This document shows, one piece after another, positions 32,998 through 61,891 of a stretch of 64,000 bases of DNA. Position 1 is the stretch's first letter, and each line of letters begins with the position of its first letter. The stretch is taken from contig NC_049989.1 in assembly GCF_000003815.2 (NCBI RefSeq), forward strand, positions 6,637,717-6,701,716, in the 5' to 3' direction. This stretch comes from Branchiostoma floridae (lineage: Eukaryota; Chordata; Leptocardii; Amphioxiformes; Branchiostomatidae). The notes below the pieces were generated by a model. That model did no database searches. It was given only the letters and a program-made list of their open reading frames with translations, and was not told the DNA's origin. The position numbers were made by a program, and so were the translations under genes.

Positions 32998-34670
32998 TAT
33001 GCTGTGGTTGGTGTTCAGATACTGCAAAGTGCACGAAGGTATATATGGTGATTAAAGAACACAATGCGTATAGCATACCTGGTCTACAATAAGAAAAAAT
33101 ACCGCCGAAGTGACTATGACACCACGCGGTTAACAAATCCTTTCTTTCTACTGCATAGAATTGAGGGACCACGAATCCCTATAGAATGAGTACATAGGGT
33201 AACACAAATTCAGGTCAAGGAAAGCGCATTCTCACCTTTTAAACGATATTGAAGAAAGCCCAGAACCAAGGAGAAAGACCGCGACCAAGGACAGCAAAAA
33301 TGAACTTTCAACTGACAAATTTTGAAATTCGCTTCTTATGTACTCCCCAAGCTGGGCCAAAGAACTTCGTTCAGCAACATATCAATACGCCAATGTTCAG
33401 TTTGAAAACTTCGTTTTGAATTTTGTTTGCTTTATCGTGCAAAGAGTGGTTGCGTATCCATTCTCCAACAGATATCTATGCTCTAACGTATCAGCGAGAA
33501 TTATTTGCTGTCAGATCTATGATAAAGCTTGGAACTATTTTCTTCCTGTGCAGATTGTAAACAGGTTCCAATGCCACAGGTGTGCCCACACCTGCCCAAC
33601 GCCCCGGTAAGTGATGTATTGAATTTTTAGTGTTAACGAGTTTTTCTTCAATCATCAGAACAGGCGAACACAACGTTAAGATTATAATCTAGTGACAGTT
33701 ATCCTCTTAAATATTTCTAACTGGCAGCTAAGACACTTCTGACAAGCAGCTCGCTAAATAGTATAAGAACACGGAACTTCAAATGGCGATAGAGTGCCAT
33801 TTATCTTGTTGATAGCATTCACATGTCCTTTCAAATGAGCTTTCCAAAAATTCCGCTAGGTGACACAATGGACATGTGAAAGGAATCCTTCACATCTTTC
33901 AACACAGCATTTGTTCTCGGAATAAGCTGGTGAGATATTGCCCTATTTCGTGACAGATGAATGTTGAAGAACTCAACTGAACTTCAGGTAAGTTGAATTG
34001 TAGGAGCTTGTAATATAAAGCGATTTCCGTTGACAGTACTAGTAATTTTTGTTATGTGCCCCCCCCCCCCGAACATCTACTACAACCATGTAACGATTAT
34101 ACGATTAGACCCTTTATTTGAAAGGACACAACGAGACAGACTTGACTTTTGACATATGACTTAAGCCACCCAGGCGTGTATATATATATTTATTTGTATA
34201 ACTTTAAGTTGACTGTGCTTAGTTCTGGCATATACATGTAGACGTACACGTACAATGTACACTCTAACACAGCAAGTATAGTAGACGTACAGTGGGCAAG
34301 GTTACTTAGAACATCCACACTAGGATTCAGGTGCCATAGCTACCTTTTCTTCACTTCAGTTTCATAAAGCTACCTAACAATACCATACGTGACCTTTCGT
34401 TTTCGTCATATTCATGGTCATTTTGAACAAGACTGTTCACTCGATTTTAGAGAGAGAAACATTGCACGGAACTGCAATCGTTTCCACAAACATGCTTGGC
34501 TTTCATACGATTGATTACAACGTACTTTAAGTGTCTAAGATTTTCTACCTTATATGCAATTCTTTTATATATTAAGAAGATATATGATATGATATTTGAA
34601 ATATGATAGCGCAATATTCTTGCTACATTTTTCATATCCTGGACTCTTACTCAACATAGCTTTGCTTAGC
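32998..34670. other. Intergenic region between polycystin-like and H1-like genes
   Basis: This should hold the H1-like promoter and the 3' UTR of the polycystin-like gene (both minus strand). A C-rich tract occurs near 34062. No exon, RNA gene or mobile element was recognised. Confidence 0.5.
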
Positions 34671-37600
34671 TTAATCATCAGGTTTATTCTCTTTATCATG
34701 CGTACTGTCCTCGAGGAATTCGTTCATCGTCTTCCATTCACTGTAGAGTTCATCAACCTTCATTTCAATGTCTGTCACGATATCGTCCAGCTCTACTGCC
34801 GGCGCCTTCCCCTCAAATATGAGTAGATCTGGAAAAGTGCGAACAAATTATGTTATATAAAATTATATAAAGATTGTTGCATATTGGGTTGGTTGCTTGT
34901 CAAGTGTAACAGGTGTTCGGGTAATTAATGGGCACCAATACATACACTTGAAGTGACATATTCAAGAACGTACTTTGACCCTTGACATCCCGACGACGTC
35001 CCGTGATCCTCCACGCCATCTCCCACATCCCCTGGGCGATCTCCGCTTGCTCACGTGACAGCTTGACTTCCCTCATGGTCGCCAGGGCCTCGTTGATGAC
35101 AGAGATGAGCAGATTCAGCAGAATGAACATCATGGTCACAACGAAAAGAAGGAGGTACATGGGCGCCATGCTGTTGTTGCGCAAAAGAGACACCACAGAA
35201 TTGATGTTACCCAACGACATGACAAAGGAGCTCTCTGTCGCGTCAGCGAAGGACTTGAAGTTGCTGTGCTCCGTCCCAAATGCCAGCCATCCGAACTGGA
35301 CGAAAGCGAGGAACGCGACGAGGAATATGACCAGGAACATGAGGAGGTCCTTGGACATGATGCGCAGGCAGCTGGAGAAGGACGCGATGATGGCGTTGAA
35401 GCGCAGCAGCTTGATCAGCTTGATGACGTTGATGAAGGCAACGACTGCAGTCACCCACGTGAACAGAGCCGAGATGCTGGCCAGTTGGATAAGCGTCTCA
35501 TGGGTGGAGTCTGTGAGGGCATATGAACGTGGTTAAATTGATTCACATGACATAATGTGGTCAAAACAATGACTCCATTTATTATCGGCATCATACTTGA
35601 GACAGAATACATAGACTATAACTATCGTGCGCTACTAAACGTAGGAACTAGTAGGAGTATTAGCGTTAGTGCACCGTTATTACACCTTTATGCCTCATAC
35701 TGCACTGTCAGAGCTTTCAGATGGGGTAAATAGGTATCATATTGTGTGATGCCGTGGTCCGGGTCTTAACACATATCGAGAGCATTCAAGATATTAAATG
35801 GTCGTTTTTGTACTTACCGGACTGCCGATCCTCCGCCTTGAATGACGTGCTCTCCGCAATGATAACCTTAGCCACACCTATGGAGATCGCCATCCATGAA
35901 AACGCCAAGTTGAAGACCTCAACGACGTTCCAGAATTGGAGGAAATATTCACAGCGAAGTCGGATCACAGCCTTTATCTCCCTGAATGTCTGTATCAGTA
36001 CAATAATCACAAAACAAAGCTGCACGGCCGCCACGAGGACACCCTGCGCTCCGACGTAGTCGTGAAGTTGAAAGACAGACATCCATTTCGAAGGGAATAC
36101 GGCTCCAGTTGGGGTGTATTCTATCAAGTACGTTACAACACAAACGAGTTTAACGTTGTTACTCAACAATGCAAACTCCACAAAGAGAGCCCGAGTTTGA
36201 GAGTCAGTCCAGTTGTTATTGAACAGGTGACAGAGGACACCCATTGCCTGTTCCTTAGTGTTTCCAAGCTGGGCGAAGTAACCGCTGCCGTCATACACAT
36301 CCAGTTTTCCTATGTATGGTAGGGAATTTTTGCCATGATCTTTGGAGACGTTCCATGCCGACGGAACAGGGAAACTGGGTGACTCTGTGGAATTACTTGA
36401 AGGATACCAGTCATTCATATGATTTATACCTGCAAAATAAAGGAAGACAAGACCCATCGTCAAATCCAGTAAACCAAGGGACGTATGCGCTTTTGAGCTG
36501 TTTGTCGTTATTGTGGAATCTGTTCATTCGCATCAGATATAAGATTTTATACGCTGCAATACAAGGTAATAAAGCAAGGCAATATGAAGCAGAATCCATA
36601 GTCCCAAGTAAAGACAAAGAGGTTACCATTTGTTGACGTCCGCTGCTGCCTCAAGTGCGGTACCGTTAGTTTAAACAAAGGAACGTCAACGGTCGGTATG
36701 TGTCCGCTGGCAGTGGTGCTCCTGCGCACTCGTGCTCTTTCTGCGAACAATCCCGGAATCACGGTTCCCTCCAACCACCACTGAACGTCTGGCCTTTTAC
36801 CAACCTGTACGTGACATCACAAAATCATATCAGTGAAAGCTCAGCTAGCCCAGGCCGTTGAAGAGATTTTGCTATCTTCTTATTACCATCGCTTGTTGTC
36901 CTGATATGCCCTGCTCCAAGCCCCCTTTCCTTTTATGTGAAAAAAAGCATTCTTCAGCAGAAATACTCGCTCCATTACCTTTATATTCCCATGTTTTTGT
37001 TTGCCTCGACTTAAGATAAATCATTAGTAATGCAAATTTACTTACTTTGAATAACTTGTTGTCGAATGTCGTGCTGACCGACTTGTGGAAGTGGTAGCCT
37101 GCGCTGGAGAACCCCACGTTTGCCACGCACAGGATGAAGACGACGTACACTAAGTAAGACATGATCTCCGCCAGGGTCTTGCTGACTTTCATCCGCCGCT
37201 GTCTGGACTCCCAGGCTCGCTTCAGGATGGACAGGTCGACTTTCGGGAGGCCCCTTCTACACTGCTCTCGTGCAGCAAGTGACCGCTCGGCTGTCATATG
37301 GACACCAAATTTGAGTAAAAACTGTCATATAGTGTTTTTTCTCCAAGCAGAGGTTCGGCTCCGGCTGTGTTTCACATGTTTTAGGCGTTTCTATCGGGGT
37401 TTTATATTTTGTGCCGTATACTTTATGTCCTGGTTTGGCCGCGAGACATAAAGAACACGGCACAAAATAGAAAGCTTTATAGAAAACAACCAGAGCCGAA
37501 CCTCTGCTTGGAGAGTAGTATTTGGTACGTTATTGTGAACCTACAAACTGACAACAGTAATGCAATCTGTACCTATAACACATTTGCTATTTGGCTAAGA

Positions 37601-38704
37601 AAGTAAAGACTGAGAGTCATTGATGGGTGTTGCCAAACACTATCATCATTGATATTAAAATACGACTATCTACTGATAGAACATGCATCAATAGTGTTGA
37701 AGATACCATCCTGTTCTTCAGATACTGGAGGAACCGTCTTGCTACTGTCCGTCGTCTCGACTACGGCAACCAGCTTTTTGCACAGCATGGACAACGCGGC
37801 AGCTAAGAGAATCACCTTGAAGACAATAAGGGCAGTTTTAAGAAATGTCTGTAAACGCCATTTGTCATTCTGTGGTAGAAATGAGTTTGTATTTATGTGG
37901 TACGTACCTTTAAGGGCTCTATGATCAACGTTGACATAAAAAAGGACATAAAGAAGCTCTTGAGCCAGTTGTTGGCCTTCTCCGAGCCCCACTGTAGGCT
38001 GTACAGGATCGTGAAGAACGCCGAGACGAAGCACGACAGGAACACCAGCACCCAGCCTACGTACACCATCCAGTACGGGAGCATCTTCTCACCTCCACCT
38101 CGTGACTTGCTCGATTTCTCCTCTGCATAACGCGTTGAAGGAAGTACAAGTCACCATGAATGCACAACCCGTAAGTTGGTCCATTATATTTGCCTTGTTG
38201 TTGTTAGCGTTGTTTTAGGAAACTAAGGGCTCTCAACACAAGGAAACTCTGGCACATTCTACGCGACCTTTACACGTGCACGCACTGACCCTGACCTCTC
38301 CCTGTAGATACCATGACTGTAGACACTGTATGCGCTACCATAGAACACTTAGACGTAAAACAGTTGCACATAGCAGTTGCATACAGTTATAACCTTTGTT
38401 GGGAACAACATTTGGGCGCAATGTATAGATCAATGCGTTTATGTATGTATGAAGTTACCTAAATCCTCAGCAAACACGTGCTGTTTGTCAGGTTTGTTCC
38501 TGGTCTTCCTGAAGATCTGCACGATGACGACATTAACAGGCAGGACCGTCAGACTGCTCATGACGCTGACGTACATCTGGTGGAGGGTGAAGCTGATTGG
38601 TCCGATGGTCAGGGCAGAGGGAGACTCCACCTTGTCCTCTGTCTGGTACCACATGGCGTTCGCGATCATGGTGCAGAAAAGGATGGACAGACAGCAGGCC
38701 AGAC
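34671..38704 (-). other. Polycystin transmembrane region, TOP domain, pore and C-tail
   Basis: Exons 26-33 encode the remaining transmembrane helices. Exon 27 has the family word [20 protein letters not shown] followed by LK. Exons 30-31 encode the extracellular polycystin (TOP) domain: [42 protein letters not shown]. Exon 32 holds S4-like [10 protein letters not shown], the S5 helix, the pore helix ([11 protein letters not shown]) and S6 ([17 protein letters not shown]). Exon 33 is a 52-residue acidic, probably helical C-tail. The PKD2 filter LGD reads LGN here. Confidence 0.9.
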
Positions 38705-41700
38705 CTGAACATGTTCAAACACATGGTATTAGTCTTGTAAGAGGACTGGTAATGGTCTCAGTGTCATTACCAGTGAGGGCTCAGTGTCATTACCACAGAC
38801 GGCTTTTGAAATTTTGTAATTGTGCTCTAAATCCTTATTCTCCCATATTTTATCATGTTCACACATACGATTGATCCTTACAAATATTTCGCACTGTCTA
38901 TTCGGATCTGTCTCCCACAGGTTCGAAAATGATGTAGATGGGTTTCATACATCGGCATTCATTTGCTTTACTGAATTCAAGCTGAATAGTTAATTCATAG
39001 CATTTGCCCCGTTCCGCCAAAAAGGAACAGTTGCAGAAGTAACCATTCACTTGAACACTATTTAGCCTTGATTTAGACACCTAAGTTAAAGTAAACATAC
39101 GTTGTACTCTAGTAAAGTTCCTTGAAATCCCCTTCGATACTGTCGACATCCAGATGTGACCGTCGGTAAAGTTCTTCTTGGTTTGAGAAAGGAAAAGGTG
39201 ACCGAAGGACATGAGTTCGCTTTCTGATGCGTTCGGGATGGTTCTGTAGATGAGACCGTCAGACCTGTCCGCAGCCAGCCAATCATCACACAGGAAGGTG
39301 TAACTGCGGTGGACAATTTAAGTGTGAAAGGTCATTCAGCACCAATAGGACAGTTTACACAGACAAACAGTTGTTATACAGGTAGGTATGACTGTAGTGA
39401 AGAATAGAAGGAAAGGTCGTTCAGCACCAAGGACGGGTCACATAACCCAACAGTCGTCATACAGGAAGGTATGGCCGTTGTGGAGAAATTGTAAAGGCCG
39501 TTCAGCACCAAGGACAAGTTACATAGCCCAACAGTCATCATACAGGAAGGTATTACTGTTGTGGAGAATTAAAGAAGAAAACGTCGTTCAGCACCAAGGA
39601 CAGGTTACATAGCCCAACAGTTGTTATACAGGTAAGTATGACTGTTATGAAGAATAGAAGAAGGAAAGGTCGTTCAGCGACAAGGACAGGTTACATGGCA
39701 TAACAGTTGTTATACAAGTAGGTATGACTGTTGTGGACAATGGAAGAAGGAATACAGGAAGGCATGACTGTTGTGAAGAATAGAAGGAAAGGTAGTTTAG
39801 TACCAAGGACAGTTTCCATACCACAACAGTCGTCATACAGAAAGGTATGACTGTTGCGGAGAATGGAAGAAGGAAATGTCGTTCAGCACCAAGGACAGGT
39901 TATATAGCCCAACAGTCATCATACAGTAAGGCATTACTGTTTTGGCGAAATTGTTTGTTTATTTTATTTAACCAGGGTTACATGTCACCAGGTTGATGAT
40001 TTTAAGAAGGAAAGGCCGTTCAGCACAAAGGACAGATATAACAGTCGCCGTACAGGAAGGTATGACTGTTGTGGGGAATAGAGGAAGAAAGGTCGTTCAG
40101 CACCAAGGACAGGTTACATAGCACAACAGCCGTCATACAGGAAATGTATGACTATTCTGAAGAATAGAAGAAGGAAAGATCGTTCAGTACCAGGGACAGG
40201 TATTGCTAAATTTTAGTTGTGGTAACAGCACAACAAAAAGTACATTAGTCATTACGTTAGGTCTCTCTGGAGGTCATGAACGACGACCTTCTCCAGGTAC
40301 CAGGAGTCGCGGGTTCCCTTCCCGCTGTTGTCGTGCCAGATGTGGAGGGTCTGGAGGTGCCCCAGGTCATAGGATGTCGTCATCAGAAATGTTCGACACT
40401 CACCTGTGGCGAGGACCTGATAAAAACGGTAAGTGACTAACGGTAAAGTTCAATTCAATGATTTAGAAGAATTCGCAAATGTTCACTTTATCATTGTAAG
40501 GGGTATGCTAATGCTTGATCCTAGTCAATACCACCCCCGTCTGTTTATGTCTCTTAGTGCTATTCTGTGATAATAGTTTGAAGAATGGCTTATCATAACC
40601 ACATACCAGAAAAGCATACCGTGTAGATAATAAAGCACTTTGAACTGATTGAATACTGAGTACACTGGGTAATTCGTAATATAAACTCACGTTCTTCTCA
40701 TTTCCTAGAGCTCGCACGTCGCTGTCATCCAGCGACCCCGTCAGCAGGAATGCGACTTTTGAGTCGGTCCCTGACCCGACGTGATGGCCGGTGTAAACCT
40801 TGAGAAGGTACTGGAGTCTGTCGTACGGTTTGTTGTTTGGCAGGTGAAACACTGCCGCCTGGAACAACACAAGCACACTATCATCCTGTTTCATTCTATT
40901 GTCACGTGAGCATCATTTACCTTGAATGCATGAAAGCATATATCAAGCAATGCTATTACCATGTTATTATTTGACAACCATTATGTAGTTTGCCTAACAG
41001 CCCCCGGCGCCAACACGAAATACATTCTTTTGCTTGGATTGTTGAACTTTGTTCTTTATCCCCAAATCATTGAACTGTGCCTTTCCTACTTTTTGCTGCG
41101 TCATAAAAGAATACGTTATACCTTCATGGCGTCCAACTTATCCGCTCGTCTTGCAAAGAACGCACCGACCAAGAAGAGAGCGAGAAACGCCAGGACGGTG
41201 GCGAACACACCGGGGTTTTGTCCGAGGTCTGCGCTGAAAACGGTTGAGAAGTCGATGGTGTTTGGGAGCGTGAAGAAACTGGCGGCAAAGTCAGTCCTGT
41301 CCTCAATCAGATGGTTACAGAGACAAACGGTCTTCGTGGTTGTAGACTTGGGGCTGACCTATCGTAAAGAAATCCAGAAATTATAATTACATCATACAGG
41401 GCGGTAGCCTGGGTACCATCCGGAAAGTAGTTCGCTTCGGCGTTTATTAACACTATATACAATTGCTTCTAGTCCTGACATTCATTATACACTATAATTA
41501 CAGTCGCTTCTCCGCTATCTGTAGCAGAAGCGATCATAGGAGCGAACTACCACAGTAACACGAATGCTCAACAGGTATATCGCAGTATGTATCAATCTAA
41601 GAGTACTCGTATTATCTTTACAGAAGTATCTTTATAGAATAGGATAGTCAAAAGAACTCACATGGCATCCTTCCTCCCTCCAGTTATGCGCTCTCTCGTT

Positions 41701-44700
41701 CCAGAAGTTACAGCTCAGCCCTCTCACACTCAGGTTGTGGCCAGGTCCTCCCTGTTCACTGCTCCGGTCACGGTATACTCCAAGGTAGAGGACGGACGAT
41801 TCGTTGAAGGTCGGGAGAAGGAAAGAGAAGTCTGAACTAGAGCCAACAACAGACGTTGTCATGTTGTACACATCCCGCGTTGGAAAGTCGTCGTAGCGAA
41901 GATACAGCGTAAGGCTTGTACCTGGTACGGTGGGTGTTACTGTGATGGCTAGTGCCTGGGGTTGGGAGCTGTTCGTTCCGTTAATGACATGATACATCAT
42001 GTCCCCAAACTGACGTATGTCGTCCAGAGAGACAGGTGCTGCAGACAGGGCAGTTATTCCCTGTGACAGGCCGAGCTCAATGTCGTCTGGAAGTGACGTA
42101 AAGCTTAGCAAATGGTTTCCCGGCATCCTCTTGACCATGACGTCAAGAACGGCCGTTTGTACGACGTTGTTATCCGTAAAACTCCAGCAGAATGGGTTGT
42201 CTTTGTAGAATGTGGTCTGGAAAAAAGGCAAATTGTGCTTCAGAAATATTTAGTAACTTCTCTTATGCCTATATGCAATAAAAATTGTGAAAGAAGCACA
42301 TATCCAAAAATAATAAGAAAACATTACTCTCCAAGCAGAGGTTAGGCTCCGGCTGTTTTTTTAACGTTTTTTTAGTCCTTTTTATCGGGCTTTCTATTTT
42401 GTCATTTTTCTTGTAGTTAGGTTTTGACACAGCAAGATAAAATAAAAAATAGAAAGCCCGATAAAAACGACGAAAAATTTTTTTAAAAACAGCCGGAGCC
42501 TAACCTCTGCTTGGAGAGTAAGAAAACATGACTTACTTGGGCAACGGTCCAGTTTCTGACCGTGATGTTGTAGTCAAGCGCCTCCTGTATTGAGGCTAGG
42601 AAATCCGGAGGATCCGTTATCATATCCAACAGCGATACTGGAAACACGACATAGCCTCCATCAACTGTAAAGGGCTGCTCGGTAGAGTTCTTGTCCAGTG
42701 TGAGTGATGCAATTGTGATGCTTGTGCTGGAGATTTCGATCCTGTCTATGTACATTTCGTGCAGAACACTGGACAGAGTGTCCCCGAGGTATTTGGCCGC
42801 TTCATGACAATGTACCGCCATTGTTACGAGCTAGAAAAGAGAAGAAGAAAAAATCAAATACATACTACATGATTTGAAACACAGGTGGATTATTTTCGTG
42901 TAGCTTTGTCCTGATGTACATAAACAATATAAAGGAATTACAACAGTTATAACTGTAAACTGTTAAGAGTGAACTGACTGAGTGAGGATAAACGTCCAAC
43001 ACACAATACCCACCATTGTTCTGTAACGTTATATAGTAAAATTTATATTAAAAGTCCCTAACTTCCGGGGTTCGTGCGCTACGCGCGCGCAAAGTTGCTA
43101 CTTCGGGGGAATACGCTATCCCGGATATATCTGGGTGCGGCACACAGGACATGTATATGTATGCCGGATATATCCGGGTTTGGCAGTTTAAGGGTTAAGA
43201 GAAATACAATCAGTCAGACACAAATGTTTCAATTTTCCAACATGTTGTGATCGTATGTTTATGGTTGAGATAGTAGCGTTACAGTAAAACGAATATTTGC
43301 AAAGACTGACCTGGTCCGGACAATGACTCGGCTGCGCTTCCACCATCAGTAGACCGTCCGCAAAGTCTAGAAGCTCTAAAGCAGAAAGCATGAGTTAAAC
43401 GTTATGACTTTAAAGACTGAAAGTAACGACTCCTTTACAATTTTAATAAGTGCAATAAGCAGAGTAATAAGTAAGGACATACTAGTACCTTCTGCCAGGA
43501 CCAATGAGTGGTTCTTGTCTGTGGAGTTGTCGCTCGGGACCGCTAGGGACAGGACAAGGGACAGACTCTCAAGTGCACCAGCCCAAGCCTCCTAAAATAG
43601 TGGGGAAATTGATAAAGCGTTTGGTCAAGGTCAGTTTTGATCAGGAATTTGAAAAATTGATCTTGACTAAGGTCAATATTTGTTCGTAGCAACCGGCCCT
43701 ATGCTGTAAGATCATGCGCTCTTAGGCCTACAATGAAATCGCATTGTAAGATTTAAAATGTAAGATTTAATATTAAAATATTCCAAAACAGAAGCTGCCC
43801 GTTCACCTTCCCGACATCGCTGGTAGCATCCATGTCGACTCTCCTGAACACTCTGAGAGCGGAGACCACCGCGGGATGCACCTGGTCTGACGTGTAGTTC
43901 TGACCGGTCGACAAACCAACCACGAACCTGATCAGGTCCGAGGTAAAGATCAGCTCCTCGTCAATGATGATCAGAGGGAGAGCGTCAAGATAGTCAACCA
44001 ACAGGGGGAAGTTCTAGTTTGTGTAAATGCAAGAATATAGAATTAGTTTGACAGATTATCTTTCTAAATCATGTGACGTTGCATGTCAATATGTACGTAT
44101 TTCAATAATACTAGGGTCAACAGAACATTTTGTGGAATTGAGAAACGATATGTTCTGGGATGATCACCTACCACAATGTCTGCAGATACAAGTGAAGCAT
44201 GGTGAATAGAAAAAACACCACCATCAATTATAGCAAACATTTACCATTCATTCACTCTTAATTATATGCATTTATATCCATCCTTTGGACAATGCGTTCG
44301 TATAAAACAAACAATACATATAGATATATAGATTCGGACGGGTCAAACCTGGTGTCATCTTGCAGACAAAGGAGTTGTTCATGGTGCACGGCAAGTCTTC
44401 CCATCCTGTATAAGAGGAGTAACGTTATACATGTATGGCAGAATAATGGCTTCTGATGTATTTTCTTAGCTACTGACACGTTACTGTTAACCTGCCCCGC
44501 AAACAAGCATTAAGAATGGCAACACAATAATGTTGTGTCACACCCTTGCCAAAGACAATTTAAACACAGACATTTTCGATCTACTTATGCCATGTCCCAA
44601 CTCCTCGTACGTACTTTGGCCAATGTAGCACTTAATAAACGAGTGAATATATTGACCATAACAGTCTTGTACATTTGTCAATACGCCGTTTACGTCCATA

Positions 44701-47700
44701 TTCCGGCAGTTATGGACTTTAAAATAGACTAGTATTATTGTATTGATCATCTTGGCATTGTTGCATTTTACCATGTCGAGCAATAAAGTTCATCCATTGA
44801 AAGCACATACCATTCCCGCTGACAGCCGCGCAGTTCTCGGCCGTCCCTCCGTCTGGTTGTGCAGGTTGCCATGGATACGGCTCTCCTGACCACGTGCCGT
44901 TCAGCCACACCCACGTCCCTTCCTAACGAGAACAATTATATTCTTACCTTAGCGAACACAGCTATATAAAGAAATACTTTTTAGAATCATATTTCTAAAT
45001 ATTCAGAAAACTAGATTTTATTCCCAGTATCTGCTGGAAGACGTTATATCGTACTCTCCAAGCAGAGGTTAGGCTCCGGCTATTTTTAGACGTTTTTTAT
45101 GCGTTTTTTATCGGGCTTTTTATTATGTACCTTTCTCTTTATGTCTCGTGGACTAAAAAAGAAAACGATACAAAATAGAAAGCATGATAGAAACGCCTAT
45201 GTCGGGGCCTAAAAAACAGCCTGAGTCGAACCTCTGCTTGGACAGAAGTTATATCGCACAAGGGTGTTTATAACGTTACCGTTTGAACAAAATACTGATA
45301 CAGATATATACACCAGATATTCGTACCGTCGCCACATCGTTCAGCCCTATCCACCACGTCACGGCCCCGTCTCCCACGATGTTCGCCACCATGGTGCTCT
45401 CCGCCAGGCTGGAGAAGGAGACCACATTGCCCCCGTGGAACCGGCAGTCCGACTGCGCCACGTCCCACGGGGCCTCGCCGGTGGTGACGGGGAGGTAGAA
45501 CGCACCGAGAGACGACACCGGCCCTGGTCCTGATAGGGTCAAACATGGTTCTTTATGATGATTTAGCCTTTCAGTATAGGGATGAAATGGTACCGGTTAG
45601 CTTAGGTTGTATGTACTGTATACGTGCTATCGTACAATCAAACTATAGCAGTAATGTTACCATAGCGCGTTGATGTTTTATTGGAAAGGACGCAACAAGA
45701 AATGGTTTTGAAAACGGGAAAACAAAATAGCTATAGAATTAGATTCTTATTTTTCCTGTTGAATGAATGGCTATAGCTTTCCTTAGCTTTTAATCTACTT
45801 TCTGTCTACATATATTTTCAGACAGAAAATACATGACATAACCTTCTATGATTAAAGACAGGGTTGTTAAAATTTGACTCACCGTCACATGTTCTGTTGT
45901 CCGCGTTGAGAGTAAACCCTGTCAGACAGTAGCAGTGGAACCCATACGGCGTGATCAGGTAATTTGCGCAAAGCTGGTCACAGTCGGCAAAGTCATCCGT
46001 ACACTCGTTCACATCTAGCAAGAATACAAATCGATGTAGATGTAGTAAAGTATTAGCGCAAAGCATTGGAAACAGGCAATTGTATTCGGTGTAAGTTCAG
46101 CGCAGGGCAAATGTACTTGGACTGATGTCAATGGACTGATTTTGTTGTGCTACTGCTACAGATTGACTGCACGTCATTTCCACTAGCCATGGACGTGTCT
46201 GCGTTTTTCCTGTCGGAGCTATGTACAATCACTGTGTTTGAAGATATCTATCTTGACCGAGGTTTACAGATTCACGGTGCTAAGAAATCAATCTAGCTAC
46301 AAGTATTTGACTGGAGAAACGTGGACGTGCAAAAGCGCTTTAGAGATTAGATGCCATCGTTTCAAGAAGCGGTAGGTGTTCATGACGTACCTATGACCTC
46401 CCGGTAGTCGGCACAGCCCGGACATGCGCAGTGCGCATCCGTCATACCGCACACGTTCGTGTCGGAGCAGCACGGGGTACTGGAGGAGGCGACACACTCC
46501 CCGGGTCCGCCGTCAGGGAGGGTAGCCAAGCCGCAGGTACCAGGCACGTGGCGCCTGGATATGGCTGGCCATGCTGTAGGTAAGATAAAGCGAATAAAGC
46601 GGGCGGCCGACTTACACGATTGTCCTAGTATTGTGGCCTATGACAGTTTTGGTTTTACACACAACATCTGCGACTCCCGCTCAGTGCATCTCAATGCCGT
46701 TAACCCTCGTGGTTGACGGGAATCAGAACAAGCATTTTTTGTCTCTTGTAAATCGGCCCTATTAGAATGAGGACGAAAGATTGCGGTTTTTCGTCACCTA
46801 GAATTGCAATGCGGCTTTGCTATGGCCAACATTTTTAGCCAAGCATACCAGGTCATGATCACCCCTTCTCTTCTCAATAAGTGTGCTAGGTTCTTTTACG
46901 TGCAGAGGTTTGACGTCATATCATAAAGCTCTCTCGTGAACGGGGCCGCCGCCGCCAACCGGAAGGATGACGCTACAAGCGACTAGATCTGGCCAGCAGT
47001 GGCCATCAAAACCTAAACTTCAGAATGAATGAATGATTTTCCTGGATGAAATCGTCGTCATACCAGTACTCATACATCCGATTATCTCACCTGCATCCGT
47101 CGGCCGGACCATCATGAGGGCCTTCTTCAGCGAGATTTCCGAGCCGCGGAAGTATGTCCAGTTGACTCCCAGTCTGTGGCAGATGGCGGAGGAGTAGCCC
47201 GGGTTGGCAGGGTCGGAGCACACTGGGAGATAACTCCCGGTTAGGTACGCACGGCCGCAGCCTAGGGTGTACCACCACCCACCGCCCCACCTGTAGGGGA
47301 TGGTTCTTAGTGTTAGTGAAGGTTACATGTGTCATCATAAATATTCGACCAACTGTAGATGTTGGTCAGCGTTGGTGAAGGAAAAATACTAATACACATT
47401 TCTGGATTTCTGGAAACAAACTATACATAGCCAGTATAGTAACTGTTATGTTTATTAGACGAGTCCATTCCAAGACACCATGAGGGTTTTTAGGCGATAT
47501 TTATAATTAGTCTGAATTATTTTGAATAAAAGAATATCCACAATAATTAAATTATTTTCAAAAAATTGACTAAGAAAATACTCATTTATTTTAATTTCTT
47601 TGAGTATTTTAGAAACATTTTGAAAGTAACTGTACAAAAATATCTTTATTTAGAATAATTGTGAAACCTCTCTGTGATTATTTCACATTTACAAATATTT

Positions 47701-50700
47701 ACAAAAAATGGTAAACCTGGCCAAATGGTAAAATTAGTTTATTGCCCCCATAAAAGTGAGCCCTATTGTTGCATCTGTATATTTTTAGATTTCACTGCTG
47801 GGCACTGGTGGATCCTTTGTGGTGGGCCATTGTTGCATGGCACCCAACCATACTTTGCAAGGATGTGTGAATTGCTATCTTCCCAGCCCACCGAACCATT
47901 TACAAAAAATGGTAGAAAATGGTAAATAATGGTAGAATGCTGTTATCATTATTTAGAAACCATTAGAAGTATCCAATTCCACACCATGAATATTTCCAAA
48001 GTTTTACAGGACCAGGGAAATATTTATAAAGTTAAAACAGTGTTAGAAATATTTCTGAAGTATCAAATGTCCTAGACATATAATTACAAAACTTTAAAAT
48101 CAATTCTAAACAATGGCAACAAACATCCGCATGGTGTCTTGGAATGGACTCTAATACATTTTGGAAATCAGCCTGCAATCGTGTTGACAACTTAATGATT
48201 TAATGTCTTGTTTAATGTCAGTTTTTGTGACACTATCTAGAATAACGTCACCAAGACGACATTTCAATGACTCCATAGACACTTTCCTTTGGGCCTGAAT
48301 GGACTCATCACTCCTTGACACATTTTGGAAATCAGCCTGCAATCGTGTTATGACTACTTCATGCTTTAATGTCTTTCTTTATTGTCAGTTTTGTTCAACG
48401 TTGTGCGTGATCTGCAGTCCGATATGACTTTTAGCACCAGTCCAGCTAGGTATTGTTTGATCCAGTACCTTTCCCCACAATTGTTGGGTGTGGGGTCGTT
48501 GTCCCTGTCCGCGGTACTGAACTGCATGAGGTGTGCGATGTAACGGTAGTTGTTCTCATCGCCTGTCAGTCCGTCACCGGCGTTTCCGCTGTAGCCTGAC
48601 ACATACAGTCTGACACAGACACAGACATTCTGAATAAACTGTTCAATGTACACACGGAAAGAAAAACATATTATCATGTCTAGCTAGAATAAAGTTAGCT
48701 AGGTGACGTAGCGATGGCACCTTAGCTGCCTTCATTTGGGGCCTAAATGGACTCTATTTCTCCTTCACACGTGGAAGAATGTGAACCACATGTGTTGCAG
48801 TAAGGTTGTGAACCCTACCAATCTTTAACACAAAGCTGTTCACGAAAACAACCAGGTTTTACCTGTAGTTATCAGATGCGGGACCAACTTGGAAGAAGCT
48901 CCATTCTGCCCAGACTCTAGTGCCGTCAAAATCCTCCAACTCTAGCCGCATATAGTGGTCTTTCTATAAAAGACGAAATCGATATGGAATTATAGCCATC
49001 GTTGGAAGATGAAAGGAGTACTCTGTTATTGAACAAACTGTTACATTGTTGCGTTTGATAAAGAACTGTTGTACAGAGACAATTCTAACATAAAGATACA
49101 GACACACACACTAACACTAACACACTAACACACTAACACACTAACGTTAACACACTGACAGACTAACACACAGCACTGACCTGAGTTGTAATTTCATGCA
49201 AAGTTGCCAGCCCTAGCCAGTATTCCCCTGCCGGGTCGCCGAAGCCTTGTTCATACTGGTCCCAGAGTTGCCAGGCAAAATCCACAGAACCGTCAAACCG
49301 GTTCATCACTACCGTCCATCCGCCTTGTAAAACATGGACAGGAAAATATGATTAGTTCTGCAACTACCATAATCATGCTACACTGTATGTAGACATGCGT
49401 GTGAGTGTGTGTTTATGTGTGTGCCTGTCTGTCTGTGTCTGTCAGTTTTTGTGTGTGTGCGTGTGCACGCGCGCGCGCGCGTATGTGTGTGTGTCTTTGC
49501 GTGTCTACCTGTATTTGTGTGTCAATGTCCCATGGCTCAATGATAACCCAACTTTAATGCCCCATGACACTTCTGTAAGGGACACAATTCCCGTGGCCCT
49601 ACCTGCAGGAATGTTGGTTTGTACTAGAGTCGGCCCCAGACCAGCAGCCCTGGTGTCCTCTACGAACCATGACGGGCGCGGTCCTTTCTGAGTGATCATC
49701 GCCCAGGAATCCGTCGAAGCTAACAACAGTTAGCATAAGATATTGGTTATGGTTGTGTGTTATCCATGTAACACATACATTTACATATCATGTATAAACA
49801 CATCATTCTTTGAATAAAGATATTTCATCTACAAAACAGAGACAAATGTAACCCTTCAGAATTGGATTCTCTTTTCGAGCCTCTCACATCTAAGATAAAC
49901 TACCTGTCTTACCTGGTGATGCAGTGGAGCCATAGCTAGTGAGGTTGGGCAAGTTACCGACATTGTCATGTGCAGCCAATGCCAGAACTCTCCCCTGGCA
50001 AGAAAAACACATAAACATTGATCGTGTCAGCAATGTGAATTCCTATGTTAACTGTACCTTACAGTAAAAATGTAAGAGAAAGGGGCAAAGACATATGTGT
50101 GTAAAAACATATTTGATGTCATTGCTTGCAATAAAATCCATGTATTTGATTAAGAAAAGACTGATCATGAAAAATGACTCTGGAAAATACTGAGCGTAAC
50201 TAAGTGTATGCATATGTGGAGTGTAGGTCCTCACTTCGTTTACCCCTCCTAGAAAGCTGGTTACAGATTGCCGTTCGCTCTCCAGCGAGGTGTCGAAGCG
50301 CCTGACATCCAGTACGTCTCCAGTGTGCTCATTAATGATGAAAATATGAAGGCCAGATCGCGCAGCACCTACCATATGAACACGAAAAAGATCAACAGAA
50401 GATACAAACACACTGCACTTACTTGAATTATTTATTACACAGTTCCAACAGTCAGGGTACTCAATAGCTCACTCGAGCTCTCAAAGTATATTACATACAT
50501 GACATTACCTGCGAAGTTAGTGGTGTTTTGCCCTACAGTGATGAAGGTGGATGTGGATGCGTCAAAGCCGGGGTCCCCAGATCCACTGGACTCCACGGCG
50601 ACGGAAAACTCTAGAGAAACATATCATGTTATCGTCCCAAATCTTCCAAGATTGCATGCATTGTTGCAAGTTGTAATTCTCGAAGCGGCCCGGGCCTTAC

Positions 50701-51302
50701 GTTACCAAAGACTCAGTTCAACATTGAAAATTACGTAGCAGCTTGGACTAGAAATGAATTGACCATGTAGCAATACCTCGAATTGTCGTACCCAGCACAT
50801 CTCCAAGTAGATCCTATATAGCTGGCAAAGGAGTGTAGCTGGTCTAAGAGTGTGCGTTGGCTATCATTCACTATTATCTTATGCTAAGGTAGTATCTGCT
50901 TGTAGATTGGTACAAAGCGACGCCTACCTCGTACTTCGCAGTAGGCTCGTCCCCGTGTTTGTCCTAGGTAGAATACTCCTCCCTCATGGTAGCCGTTATA
51001 CCAGACGTCCATACAGTCTCGCGCACCTAGACGGTTAACCGTGTAGAACATGGATAGTAACTACCTGTTAATGACTAAGGCCTTAGGCAAGTTAAGAAAA
51101 CAACGAAAACTCTGACCATACTACTCCAGACATGAAGAAAGGTTCAGAACAGTTTTCGGACAAGAGGCCACGAAGCGACGTCGCTCGAGCTCATTGGGGT
51201 AAGTGCAGCTATGCCAACTTGACAAAAGAGAAGGGATTCATCATTACCTTCTAACTCAACAATGAACACTGCAAGCACCAGTGTCCTGATTGGTGAAAAC
51301 AT
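34671..51302 (-). CDS. Polycystin-1-like receptor-channel with ILEI-split fibrinogen domain (33 exons)
   Basis: Exons in transcript order: 51248-51302, 50928-51026, 50509-50610, 50235-50368, 49913-49994, 49603-49719, 49181-49323, 48863-48963, 48469-48609, 47091-47290, 46391-46573, 45883-46014, 45327-45529, 44811-44922, 44349-44405, 44172-44179, 43807-44013, 43489-43591, 43311-43375, 42537-42830, 41662-42216, 41122-41358, 40691-40858, 40256-40416, 39101-39303, 38459-38704, 37908-38122, 37707-37815, 37046-37290, 36627-36804, 35818-36429, 34974-35510, 34671-34828. Total 6162 nt, 2053 aa, with every phase matching. Domain order: signal peptide (1-19), fibrinogen-related part 1, ILEI/FAM3-like (about 52-196), fibrinogen part 2 (196-391), Cys-rich (392-452), EGF (453-496), C-type lectin (497-620), GAIN-like with GPS (about 623-1060), PLAT (about 1111-1230), then the PKD multi-pass region with polycystin domain and pore. 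The family is a PKD1-type large receptor at the plasma membrane or cilium. Ligand and role are unknown. The start ATG is chosen for the hydrophobic leader; the frame is open a little further upstream. Confidence 0.9.
37337..37517. mobile_element. Hairpin MITE, family A, copy 3, in polycystin-like intron 28
   Basis: Arms CTCCAAGCAGAGGTTCGGCTC (from 37341) and its complement ending CTTGGAGAGTA (37517) pair over most of the element. The 9-bp target-site duplication is eroded. It lies between exons 28 and 29. Confidence 0.8.
39101..40858 (-). other. PLAT domain of the polycystin-like protein
   Basis: Exons 23-25 encode a PLAT/LH2 beta-sandwich. They read [59 protein letters not shown] and [10 protein letters not shown]. 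This intracellular domain sits in the first cytoplasmic loop of PKD1 proteins and binds phospholipid and partner proteins in the family. Confidence 0.92.
39304..40215. repeat. Degenerate minisatellite (about 80-90 bp unit) duplicating the exon 25 acceptor region
   Basis: About ten diverged copies lie between exons 24 and 25 of the polycystin-like gene. Each contains a version of TACAGGAAGGTATGACTGTTGTGG followed by AGAAGGAAAGGTCGTTCAGCACC and GGACAGGTTACATAGC words. The first word closely matches the start of exon 25 plus its acceptor (CACAGGAAGGTGTAACTGCGG at 39288-39308). On the minus strand the copies therefore read as repeated acceptor-like CCACAACAG plus TACCTTCCTGTATGATGA. Confidence 0.85.
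41122..44013 (-). other. GAIN-like region, degenerate GPS and first transmembrane helix
   Basis: Exons 17-22 encode about 490 residues of beta-rich, N-glycosylation-site-rich sequence. They end in a GPS motif: C1015-NFW, W1025, C1030, then C1043-L-C1045-NHL. The residue after HL is Ile1049, where autoproteolytic GPS sites have Thr or Ser. The first hydrophobic helix ([19 protein letters not shown]) follows, ended by basic ARRADK. Confidence 0.8.
42325..42520. mobile_element. Hairpin MITE, family A, copy 4 (intact), in polycystin-like intron 20
   Basis: An almost perfect 196-bp palindrome with ends TACTCTCCAAGCAGAGGTTA and complement. The target-site duplication is a perfect 9-mer AGAAAACAT at 42316-42324 and 42521-42529. 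The insertion lies only 16 bp from the exon 20 donor. Confidence 0.93.
44172..44179 (-). other. Predicted 8-nt micro-exon of the polycystin-like gene
   Basis: On the minus strand the sequence reads CTTGTATCTGCAG|ACATTGTG|GTAGGTGATC. It has a strong acceptor, eight exonic bases and a strong donor. Exon 15 ends in phase 1 and exon 17 must start in phase 0; these eight bases are exactly what restores the frame, adding D-I-V. No other acceptor-donor pair in the 335-bp interval was seen to do so. Confidence 0.7.
44349..46573 (-). other. Cys-rich, calcium-binding EGF and C-type lectin modules of the polycystin-like protein
   Basis: Exon 11 (46391-46573) carries a ten-cysteine module with [22 protein letters not shown], a pattern seen in other extracellular invertebrate proteins. 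Exon 12 (45883-46014) is a calcium-binding EGF repeat beginning [12 protein letters not shown]. Exons 13-15 encode a C-type lectin domain: [46 protein letters not shown] and NNSFVCK. The QPD tripeptide favours galactose-type sugars in family terms. All three modules start and end in phase 1, the usual sign of exon shuffling. Confidence 0.85.
45052..45247. mobile_element. Hairpin MITE, family A, copy 5, in polycystin-like intron 13
   Basis: A 196-bp palindromic element, beginning TACTCTCCAAGCAGAGGTTA and ending in a slightly mutated complement (GCTTGGACAGAA). A perfect 9-bp duplication GTTATATCG flanks it at 45043-45051 and 45248-45256. Confidence 0.92.
47461..48151. mobile_element. AT-rich 691-bp element with 22-bp perfect inverted termini, in polycystin-like intron 9
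   Basis: GAGTCCATTCCAAGACACCATG at 47461-47482 is exactly complementary to 48130-48151. The interior is AT-rich with ATGGTAAA and AAATATTT words and no ORF of note. A related but separate 30-bp direct repeat beginning ACATTTTGGAAATCAGCC (48156 and 48320) follows immediately. Confidence 0.7.
49100..49166. repeat. Simple repeat (ACACTA)n
   Basis: Runs of ACACTAAC lie just downstream of exon 7 (minus strand) in the polycystin-like intron 7. Confidence 0.85.
49396..49512. repeat. GT/GC-rich simple repeat
   Basis: Mixed TGTG, CTGTCTGT and CGCGCGCG runs in polycystin-like intron 6. The alternating purine-pyrimidine tract could adopt Z-DNA, which is inference. Confidence 0.85.
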
Positions 51303-55642: not shown

Positions 55643-58600
55643 CTACTCCAATCCTGTCACCTCTGCGCTAACTTCCCACAACTTCTTGGCCAGACCATCA
55701 TCCTTTGCATCTTCAGACTCCTCTGCTATGCTGCAGTCTGCAAAATACCTGGTAGGGGGACAAAGATTTCACAGAGGTGACAAGAGGTCTTATACATGTT
55801 TTGTTAGATTCAATAGCAAAATGAGAAAGTAAGTTGATATATGAAGTAAATCTTACAATTTATCTTCAGTTCTCTTGAAAGAGTTGAGTATAAAATTGTC
55901 GTACCGCAATTGTTTCTCTTAGAAAATTTATTTGACTGAAATCTGGTTAAAATGACTAAACATTTTAAGTTCTTCCTACATGTAACGCTAGTTCACCTTT
56001 ATCAGTTGGGTAACCTATATCCGTGCCTTTAAAAAACAGGGTATTTGGGGATATCATGTTGACAAATATTGGTTTGCAATTTCAATATTTTCAGTACATA
56101 AAGTTTAAAATGCAGTTTAAAACTACAACCCGTCGACTTGATGTGCCTAAATACACTGTTTTGAAAAACAACGGATATAGGTTACCCAGCAGATAAAGGT
56201 GAACTAGCGTTACATGTGGACAACTGAAGTGTATGTTTGGAAGGCATAGCTGAGAAAACACTAACCTGCCCGTGACATTGTGTAAAGTTTCCTCCACAGC
56301 ACAGTGGATGGTGGTCTGGGCTCCCTCACGTGCACTCTTCATCAGTACCCTGCAGGGGAACATGTCAGATATAACGTCCTTGGATATACAAACCCCACCA
56401 GGAAATATGCTGGTTTATTTAGATTTTTACTCATCCCAGTCCTTGGAACCAAACTAGCACTGGTATAATCACCAGAGAAACTTGTCAACTACTAGTATTC
56501 ATTTTGCCGGTATCCAAAACATCATTTTAGTAGAGAGGCAATTTGTCATCAAAAACAAGAAAGGTAACTACTGCAGCTTATTGCTTGTTGACATGATTAG
56601 CAGATGTCGCTCCTGACCTGACATCACTTCTGACTTCCAGAACATTATCACAGTGAATCAGACATCTGATGAAGGTCAACGAGATCAACTGAAAATTCAT
56701 GGTGAGGGTTTTCCTTGTCAAATCTTATAAAATTGTTCAATTATGATAAGTAGAACAGTAAATTATTACTGTCAATTTCAGTGAGAGTGTGTGGAGACTA
56801 ACCAGCAGAATCCCTTCATAATTGTTCCCCAGACAAACCCATGGTCTGCCTTGATGCTGTCCCACAGGTCTGTGTAGATAACTCCAGGGTGGAGTGAGTT
56901 CACTGTCACGCCTGTGCAGGTACAAAGGTAAGTCTGTAAGAACTTCAATATGATATTTGAGCTTACATTTTTGTAAGCTCTACCCAACATATTCCCAAGC
57001 AACCTAAGCAACACTCTACAAGCAGGTACAAAGGTAAGTAAAATATCCTCAAGCAACCTAACCAATGCTCTACCCAAGCAGGTACAAAGATAAGTCTGTT
57101 AGCACTTCAATCAATATGATATTTGAGCTTACATCTTTGTATGCTCTACCCAAACATATCTCAGACATTTTTGATCACACGTTTCCTAAAATCCCTTTAA
57201 GTTAGGTATTTTTAAAACAGACCAACATACCCGTGCCTTCCAGTCTTCTGGCCAACTCTTTTGCGAATAGGATGTTGGCCAGCTTGCTCGGCCAGTATGA
57301 TTTCAGGTTCGGGTATCTATCACCGTTTTCATTGGTCGGCGTGAAGTCCAGCTTCCCATATATGTGCATCATGGAAGAGACCACTAGAATACGGGAGGGG
57401 GCAGACTTCTTCAGTAGGTCCAGTAGTAGGTTGGTGAGGAGGAAGTGGCCAAAATGGTTCACTCCAAACTGTAGGTCAAACCCTTCTGCAGTCTTCTCAT
57501 CAGAGTGCCAGCACAGGCCTACAGCGGACAGATACAACAACTCTCATTCAAGTCAACATTTGGGAAAAGAAACCCCTTTTTTCTATCAGGTCAGTAAAAT
57601 GGTCTACAGACAGAAAAGACTCTATATTGGCAAACAAGTACTGAACAACACAAGATGAAAGAATACAATTTGTAGAGAAAAGTTCTAAAATCTATTCACT
57701 TGCTGATTAAGATAAGGATATTTCATCTCAGTAGGTATCTCTGTATGTCTCGCTGTATTCAATTAATATTGTTATACCATATCCTGTGTGTTGATTTATT
57801 GTGTCATCTTTTGGAAAGGACGTAAAAGGGGGGCCCTGTGATGGAGGAGGTGCCTCAACCACGTAACTCAGCCTCATTACCCAAATATTGGGTACCTACT
57901 GGCTGCAAATACACCTGATATTATCATCATTATAGTCACTCCTCCTTACAATGCACATCAGATTCTCCAGATGGATCATTACTTCACTGTATATGTGTAT
58001 TTCCACAACAAAGTTTCCAATGTACCAGATACTAGTACAGGGGTGCTATTTTCTCTGTGGGATTGGACGAGTGTCAACACAGTGTGAGTAAGGGTAAGGT
58101 CTGTGTTGTTTGATATAAATGCTAAACAGTTTAACCACCTGCATTGTTGATCAGGATATCGAGCCTCCCTTCTTCTCGTTTCATCTCCTCCGCAAACTGC
58201 CGTACGGACTGGAGGCTGGCCAGGTCGAGTTTCCTGAACACGACGTTCTGGTTGTCGGTCTGCCGGATGATGTCCTGCCTGGCTTCCTCAGCTCGCTCCC
58301 GGCTGCGGCAGGCCAGGATGATCCGGCCGCCTCTACGGGCGAGATCCAGTGCCGTCTCCCTGCCAATACCTGCATTGGCACCTATATGCATATGTGAGTA
58401 GTTGAAGAATATCAGTATACAAGGTCACTACTAGCTTTCACCGACCCTGCCCCTTCCCCCCTGCTTTCCCTCTGTCCTATTAATTTATTATGCACGAGTC
58501 GTAAAGACCTTCTCTTCTCTTCCTTTGAAAGTGACCGCTATGAACCAGCTGATAATTCTGTCATTTTTTAATGAAAAGGGTGACGTCACCAGCCCAAGTT

Positions 58601-60654: not shown

Positions 60655-61891
60655 TAACAGACAGAAAAGATTCTATATTGGCAAACAAGTACTGAACAAC
60701 ACAAGATGAAAGAATACAATTTGTAGAGAAAAGTTCTAAAATCTATTCACTTGCTGATAATGATATTTCATCTCAGTAGGTATCTCTGTATGTCTCACTG
60801 TATTTAATTAATATTGTTATAGTTATACCATATCCTGTGTGCTGATTTATTGTGTCATCTTTTGAAAAGGACGTAAAAGAGGGGTCCGGTGATGGAGGAG
60901 GTGCCTCAACCACGTAACTCAGCCTCATTACCCAAATATTGGGTACCTACTGGCTGCAAATACACCTGATATTATCATCATTATAGTCACTCCTCCTTAC
61001 AATGCGCATCAGATTCTCCAGACGGATCATTACTTCACTGTATATGTGTATTTCCACAACAAAGTTTCCAATGTACCAGATAGTGTCAACACAGTGTGAG
61101 TAAGGGTAAGGTCTGTGTTGTTTGATATAAATGCTAAACAGTTTAACCACCTGCATTGTTGATCAGGATATCGAGTCTCCCTTCTTCCCGTTTCATCTCC
61201 TCCGCAAACTGCCGTACGGACTCGAGGCTGGCCAAGTCCAGTTTCCTGAACACGACGTTCTGGTTGTCTGTCTGCCGGATGATGTCCTGCCTGGCTTCCT
61301 CTGCTCGCTCTCGGCTCCGGCAGGCCAGGATGATCCGGCCGCCTCTACGGGCGAGATCCAGTGCCGTCTCCCTGCCAATACCTGCATTGGCACCTATATG
61401 CATATGTGAGTAGTTGAAGGATATCAGTATATAAGGTCATTACTAGCTTTCACCGACCCCGTCCCTTCCCCCCCCCCCTTTCCCTCTGTCCTATTATGCA
61501 CGAGTCGTAAAGACCTTCTCTTCTCTTCCTTTGGAAGTGACCGCTATCAACCAGCTGATAATTCTGTCATTTTTTAATGAAAAGGGTGACGTCACCAGCC
61601 CAAGTTGAAGTGTTCGGTGATAAGTTCGGAGGCCATTGACGGGTTCAACAGCCGCGTGAGGTAACAAGTTCTAGCCTCTGACTGTACGTGGTAGGAAGGA
61701 TCTATCCGTTCTGATATCTGTGTTGTGTGAATTTGAACTTGATCATTGTTAAAAAAAATTGATCACTTGGAAAAGCTAACTCAGCTTATATGAACGTCAA
61801 ACATTTTGATCAAAGTGAAGCAAATTTAGTCCTAGTACAACGCCCCCCTCCCCCTTGGCTCGCCCCGCTTCCATGGCCTACCCGTGATCAC
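60655..61891. repeat. Segmental duplication, copy 2
   Basis: Homologous to about 57600-58891 in the same orientation. Homology stops at 61891, corresponding to ten bases inside the 3' end of SDR exon 1. Beyond that the sequence is unrelated. Confidence 0.92.
61151..61393 (-). pseudogene. Duplicated SDR exon 2 (orphan exon)
   Basis: Copy of exon 2 ([17 protein letters not shown]...DILINNAG) with intact frame and both splice sites; the only clear amino-acid change is LASLQS to LASLES. It lies upstream of exon 1 in transcript order. Its own exon 1 copy is cut to ten bases and exons 3-6 are not duplicated here, so it cannot make an SDR alone. A misassembled second haplotype is an alternative. 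Confidence 0.85.

Follow-up and report, generated by a model that had tools for sequence, protein, structure and literature searches.

A stretch of 64,000 nucleotides from the genome of the lancelet Branchiostoma floridae (C11:6637717-6701716; hereafter, the window) contains a gene for a predicted polycystin-1-like membrane protein in which one domain sits inside another: a complete ILEI domain, encoded by four exons, is set into a fibrinogen-related (FBG) domain, in the first loop, which joins the Y-C strand to the GGWTV strand. We regard this nesting as confirmed at the level of open exons whose splicing is predicted from the genome. The closest paralog of the gene, found on another contig (C8) of the genome searched (513,431,437 bases in 431 contigs), appears to carry a different insert in the same intron of its FBG domain. 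ILEI, FBG and polycystin-1-like proteins are all known kinds; the nested arrangement and its repetition with another insert are, as far as the open-licence PMC literature searched shows, new.

Results

A fibrinogen domain interrupted by an ILEI domain

The host gene runs on the minus strand from 51302 to 34671, with 33 exons placed from the genomic sequence and a product of 2053 amino acids; all 32 introns have GT-AG boundaries and the frame stays open throughout, ending in a single terminal stop codon (Table 1). This independently built model agrees with a preliminary description of the same DNA in the placing of exons 2-10 (51026..47091, minus strand) and in the length of the product. The modules follow one another in the order signal-like start, FBG domain (with ILEI inside), cysteine-rich module, EGF-like module, C-type lectin domain, GPS, PLAT and polycystin channel. 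The signal peptide of exon 1 was judged by eye and was not flagged by the hydropathy scan at its cut-off, and exon 16 (8 nucleotides, 44179-44172) is a guessed exon that bridges a phase change between the lectin domain and the region that follows, an uncertainty that leaves the nesting unaffected.

The preliminary description had proposed both an ILEI and a fibrinogen domain in the head of the protein, and a Pfam profile search of residues 1-391 returned the two. ILEI (PF15711) was matched at residues 90-170 with 46.9 bits (cut-off 27, E 4.1e-12), over positions 1-89 of the 90 in the profile; Fibrinogen_C (PF00147) was matched at residues 196-388 with 170.1 bits, starting only at profile position 40 and ending at 220. 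When exons 3-6 were removed, the Fibrinogen_C match grew to nearly full length (profile 2-220 of 221, 178.3 bits).

Exon 2 alone gave no Pfam match, and its contribution was therefore measured on a control profile, made with 11 FBG sequences from this genome, all contiguous, and extending from the first cysteine through exon 7. On this profile exons 2 and 7 together scored 85.9 bits, as compared with 72.2 bits for exon 7 (a gain of 13.7), and none of 1,000 shuffled versions of exon 2 reached 85.9 bits (best 82.0). This gain and the shuffle control identify exon 2 as the missing start of the FBG domain that continues in exons 7-10, as had been suggested. Its two cysteines are presumably the pair that forms a disulfide in fibrinogen, and we take the DRDND of exon 9 to be the calcium-site motif. 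The best solved matches of the FBG domain were to angiopoietin-1.

The insert itself corresponds to exons 3-6, comprises 145 amino acids without a single cysteine and is bordered on either side by phase 1 introns. By sequence, its best solved relative is the stem domain of POMGnT1 (PDB 5ggj; E 6.1e-8, with the match ending at residue 144/145), FAM3A being much weaker (E 0.061). Of the earlier description of these exons as a FAM3/ILEI-like module, the ILEI part thus stands, but not FAM3 as the nearest solved relative, as the POMGnT1 stem is closer and the insert is cysteine-free and embedded in a protein model of 2053 amino acids. The idea that the insert is a FAM3 gene trapped in an intron was dropped, since its exons share the reading frame of the host and require neither a start nor a stop codon for themselves.

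Intron phase and the structure of related genes point to how the insert came to lie there. Among 15 other FBG loci (L014-L028), 11 are contiguous at the site, three carry an intron there and one (L017) is the C8 paralog. In the three with an intron (L020, L023 and L024), it falls directly before the GWTV strand, with the start of the FBG domain upstream in the same short stretch; it is of phase 1 at both ends in L023 and L024 and at the acceptor in L020, where the acceptor only was read, and no module was recognised by eye in any of these introns. The ILEI cassette of the window thus sits where FBG genes of this genome can carry an intron, and has the symmetric phase 1 borders and the host intron in relatives that mark an exon-shuffled module. 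The proposal of an ILEI cassette in the first loop of an FBG domain, within a polycystin-1-like gene, is supported by these borders, by the end of the POMGnT1 match and by the three intron-bearing loci. A wider survey for FBG start exons like that of the C8 paralog gave 17 genome matches at E 1, of which 14 were read, two with an insert (the window and C8) and 12 contiguous; the other three (C15:8303951, C15:9501842 and C15:14776752) lie in open frames of 271-297 amino acids.

A paralogous gene with a different insert

The closest paralog (C8:21693612-21715709) matches the query, which covered the region before the GPS and the GPS itself, at 49% over query residues 219-407 and at 61% over query residues 406-483. 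Its FBG exon (L017) lies 17 kb upstream of the GPS-region match on the same strand. After a signal-like start, the FBG domain begins (GARDCLDVW...YCYNELEG) and is followed by an insert in three parts: the beginning of a galactose-binding domain (DVNIALGKP...SPTCG), then an interrupting F5/8C domain (GAWLTGK...ELQLYG) and the end of the galactose-binding domain (IACGGIRGRYVGVHLPGS...LCEVEVF). The FBG domain then resumes at AGWTVIQRR, and the next two exons have borders as in the window; each junction up to the resumed FBG domain is of phase 1.

Profile scores agree with this reading at both levels of nesting. Fibrinogen_C scored 127.0 bits, from profile position 2, without the inserts and 108.7 bits with them; adding the FBG start raised the score from 73.0 to 103.8 bits, a value that none of 1,000 shuffles reached. 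The two galactose-binding halves, when joined, matched profile positions 1-90 of 91 with 71.7 bits, as against positions 1-59 and 58.8 bits for the first half alone; the first half followed by a shuffled second half (7 of 9 joins made) scored 57.7-58.7 bits and ended at profile positions 59-67. The middle exon was recognised as an F5/8C domain by itself (E 1.2e-9).

Downstream come the rest of the FBG domain and cysteine-rich, EGF-like and C-type lectin modules, with the GPS region beyond the unread C8:21694851-21701199. The two loci share module order and strand and have their inserts in the same FBG intron. As predicted from their exons, two genes of one plan have thus had the same FBG intron filled with two unrelated inserts, and the C8 insert is doubly nested.

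Elsewhere in the C8 paralog (L050, C8:21705200-21709700), there are two copies of exon 9 in tandem, together with three additional copies of the end of exon 10, possibly as a result of exon duplication or as mutually exclusive exons.

The channel part

Pfam placed GPS (E 2.5e-9), PLAT (E 1.4e-15), Polycystin_dom (E 2.5e-19; a partial match, to profile positions 99-198 of 199) and PKD_channel (E 1.7e-26) in this order in the window protein, and the hydropathy scan placed a hydrophobic segment at residues 1082-1100, between GPS and PLAT, so that GPS, first transmembrane segment, PLAT, polycystin domain and channel follow one another. The same simple scan gave 12 hydrophobic peaks from residue 1082 onwards and 13 in the whole protein, the polycystin-1 type having 11 transmembrane segments. 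We assign the protein to the polycystin-1-like kind because GPS, hydrophobic segment and PLAT precede the channel, in keeping with the preliminary description. LRR, WSC, PKD repeat and REJ gave no Pfam match in the window protein at E 0.01; in the unbroken residues 591-1130, LRR, PKD repeat and REJ were absent even at E 0.1, with GPS the sole match. A vertebrate PKD1 ortholog, which would have LRR, PKD repeats and REJ, was accordingly rejected: the gene is not PKD1 itself.

ILEI domains elsewhere in the genome

ILEI is not rare in this genome, with 31 matches to PF15711 at E 0.001; the window's own ILEI domain, used as query at E 0.1, gave 50 matches, all but four of which (46) fall elsewhere in the genome. 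Other loci carry ILEI cassettes in tandem with equal internal intron positions (phases judged by eye), among them L029, with three copies spaced about 2.2-2.3 kb, and relatives of exon 6 elsewhere show 50-66% identity across the matched part. The window's FBG parts found no match at E 0.05 in 28 stretches around ILEI matches (L001-L008, of about 3.2 kb each, and L029-L048, mostly of about 9.5 kb, with only 939 bases for L038), a survey that leaves out about a dozen loci (e.g. C7:17126813, C5:9580195, C6:13123488, C10:15640666 and C3:13554591). Tracing a donor by intron similarity, in a comparison of 49181-51026 with the other loci fetched, gave three matches only (L019, L020 and L022); all three lie inside exon 7, at fibrinogen loci.

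At C5:452162-622248, seven ILEI matches lie clustered in 170 kb, and two of the seven contain an internal stop codon.

Gene structure and other features of the window

Table 1. Predicted exons and modules of the host gene, with positions in the window and the basis of each assignment.
Feature	Position	Strand	Remarks
Exon 1	51248..51302	-	ATG; donor gtaatg; ends in phase 1; signal-peptide-like by eye
Exon 2, N-terminal part of FBG (GARDCMDVW...AYCEVR)	50928..51026	-	Pfam and shuffle control
Exon 3, start of ILEI cassette	50509..50610	-	Starts in phase 1; similar exon in L029 and L030 by eye
Exon 4, ILEI	50235..50368	-	Phase 1 to 0; Pfam, solved-chain match
Exon 5, ILEI	49913..49994	-	Phase 0 to 1; Pfam, solved-chain match
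Exon 6, end of ILEI (...TNIPA)	49603..49719	-	Ends in phase 1; Pfam, solved-chain match
Exon 7, FBG resumes	49181..49323	-	Starts in phase 1; Pfam; borders equal in C8 paralog
Exon 8, FBG	48863..48963	-	Pfam
Exon 9, FBG with DRDND	48469..48609	-	Pfam
Exon 10, end of FBG	47091..47290	-	Ends in phase 1; Pfam
Exon 11, cysteine-rich module	46391..46573	-	No Pfam match above cut-off (Chitin_bind_1 E 0.029); also in C8 paralog
Exon 12, EGF-like	45883..46014	-	FXa_inhibition, cEGF and EGF_CA, each below cut-off; 42% identity to C8
Exons 13-15, C-type lectin domain	44349..45529	-	Lectin_C E 8.4e-16
Exons 16-22, Pfam-blank region before GPS, GPS, first hydrophobic segment	41122..44179	-	Pfam, hydropathy
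Exons 23-33, PLAT, further hydrophobic segments, polycystin domain, channel, stop	34671..40858	-	Pfam, hydropathy

The introns of the host gene contain three related palindromic elements (42324-42521, 45054-45245 and 37340-37514) with inverted ends (CTCTCCAAGCAGAGGTTAGGCTCCGGCTG), resembling miniature inverted-repeat transposable elements, and tandem arrays with a unit of 86-87 bp lie at 39286-40201, in the intron that separates exon 24 from exon 25. Outside the gene, two near-identical exons about 3 kb apart (58131-58424 and 61143-61436) look by eye like a tandem duplication, the first being a short-chain dehydrogenase by Pfam. On the minus strand at 31688-33051, lysine- and alanine-rich frames resemble a linker histone H1 gene by eye; the short piece of them that was tried gave no Pfam match.

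Discussion

We consider it likely that this gene encodes a lancelet membrane protein of the polycystin-1-like kind, in which the first hairpin loop of an FBG domain bears a complete ILEI domain as part of an exon-shuffled, composite binding head. Its origin by exon shuffling has strong support: a four-exon ILEI cassette, with phase 1 at both ends, would have been copied into a phase 1 FBG intron, and the FBG host probably still folds with the insert in place. In fibrinogen structures the neighbouring strands form a hairpin and the first disulfide is internal to the part that corresponds to exon 2; because the ends of the interrupted loop would meet at this one hairpin, with the first disulfide wholly within exon 2, the fold should tolerate the insertion. 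ILEI and FBG may together form a two-site recognition head on a channel subunit, with the C-type lectin domain nearby; head and lectin would bind an extracellular glycan or glycoprotein, and binding or force might be relayed via the GPS region to the channel.

Each part of this protein has familiar relatives, from which the arrangement differs. The stem domain of POMGnT1 shares the ILEI fold with the insert, but belongs to a glycosyltransferase, whereas here the domain lies inside an FBG domain and two of three sugar contacts differ. FAM3/ILEI proteins share the Pfam family with the insert; they are small, secreted and equipped with conserved cysteines, while the insert is cysteine-free and lies within a predicted membrane protein of large size. 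With the insert taken out, the FBG domain resembles those of FBG lectins and angiopoietins (Ang-1, ficolins and FIBCD1) along nearly the whole Fibrinogen_C profile, yet neither the 11 contiguous FBG loci nor the aligned solved FBG chains have a domain between the Y-C strand and GGWTV. The order of GPS, hydrophobic segment, PLAT, polycystin domain and channel is that of the polycystin-1 family (PKD1, PKD1L1-3 and PKDREJ), but an FBG and ILEI head replaces LRR, WSC, PKD repeats and REJ, and the pore part is, among solved chains, nearest to polycystin-2. The C8 paralog differs from the window gene in having its galactose-binding and F5/8C insert instead of ILEI and, as described below, in its GPS. 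No description of an insert within an FBG domain, of its repetition with a second insert or of three-level nesting was found in searches of the open-licence PMC literature, although automatic annotations may exist in databases.

Several observations weigh against the reading of a functional glycan-binding head on a polycystin-1-like channel. PMC9802357 reports binding of N-acetylglucosamine (GlcNAc) by the POMGnT1 stem, FAM3A and FAM3C, with R129, D179 and R207 as contact residues in POMGnT1. The insert has S, D and T in the aligned columns and so keeps D179 alone of the three, the POMGnT1 numbering having been set by a constant offset that fits all three residue types and the first column being gap-dependent. 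With two of the three contacts changed, glycan binding by the insert is doubtful; its ILEI relatives in L029 and L030 seem by eye to retain all three. GPS cleavage usually takes place at HL-T/S, a motif present as HLT in the C8 paralog (L051) and replaced by HLI in the window gene (near 41310), which makes cleavage of the window protein doubtful as well, so that the function of this copy is itself in doubt. The pore part matched 16 solved sequences (phmmer, E 0.001), all of polycystin-2 or PKD2L1, and no solved PKD1 or PKD1L chain at that threshold. The exon model is, moreover, a prediction from genomic sequence alone, from which the nested fold is in turn predicted, and domain architectures in lancelets are often prediction errors according to PMC6071037.

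The alternative that fares best is one of splicing. A direct junction between exons 2 and 7 would keep the reading frame (phase 1 to phase 1), so that skipping exons 3-6 would yield a plain FBG head with a Fibrinogen_C match over profile positions 2-220, and most transcripts might skip the ILEI exons in this way. We think it unlikely that the plain head is the usual product, given the intact GT-AG sites and open frame of exons 3-6, although this is an indirect point. That the gene or its head is decaying, with ILEI as a mere passenger, would suit the altered GlcNAc contacts and GPS cleavage residue; it is quite improbable, however, when every exon is open, exon 2 retains its FBG cysteines and exon 9 its DRDND motif, ILEI scores above its Pfam cut-off and the corresponding slot is occupied in the C8 paralog too.

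Least probable of all, to the point where we give it very little weight, is an artefact of the gene model, in which exons of two or more neighbouring genes were wrongly linked by eye or a separate nested gene supplies the ILEI exons. In its favour, PMC6071037 lists a false PKD_channel fusion among the errors behind odd lancelet architectures and warns that agreement among related genomes is no proof, and the module order at C8 would equally be reproduced if a block of neighbouring genes had been duplicated. Against it, all 33 exons connect without a break in the frame and with GT-AG sites, each FBG half is incomplete alone, the ILEI exons have phase 1 on both sides and require neither a start nor a stop codon for themselves, and at the independent C8 locus, too, an insert occupies this position. 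These points bear on the nesting more than on the fusion to the channel, and the possibility of block duplication means that the order at C8, likewise, supports the former more than the latter.

Returning to the composite head, we lean, with less assurance, towards a more general view, in which the first loop of the FBG domain serves in this gene pair as a socket: one phase 1 intron would have taken up unrelated binding modules at least twice, with channel and scaffold kept constant and the tip exchanged; splicing that leaves out the cassette, without loss of frame, could replace one head by another.

Conclusions

Exon shuffling mostly adds domains one after another; in this gene, an entire domain appears to have been placed inside another, exactly at the position of an intron. 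The gene pair thereby offers a natural experiment on the tolerance of a beta-hairpin loop to insertion and on the origin of nested domains, and marks a natural insertion site in the fibrinogen scaffold. For sensory channels of the polycystin-1 kind, it suggests how the ligand may change.

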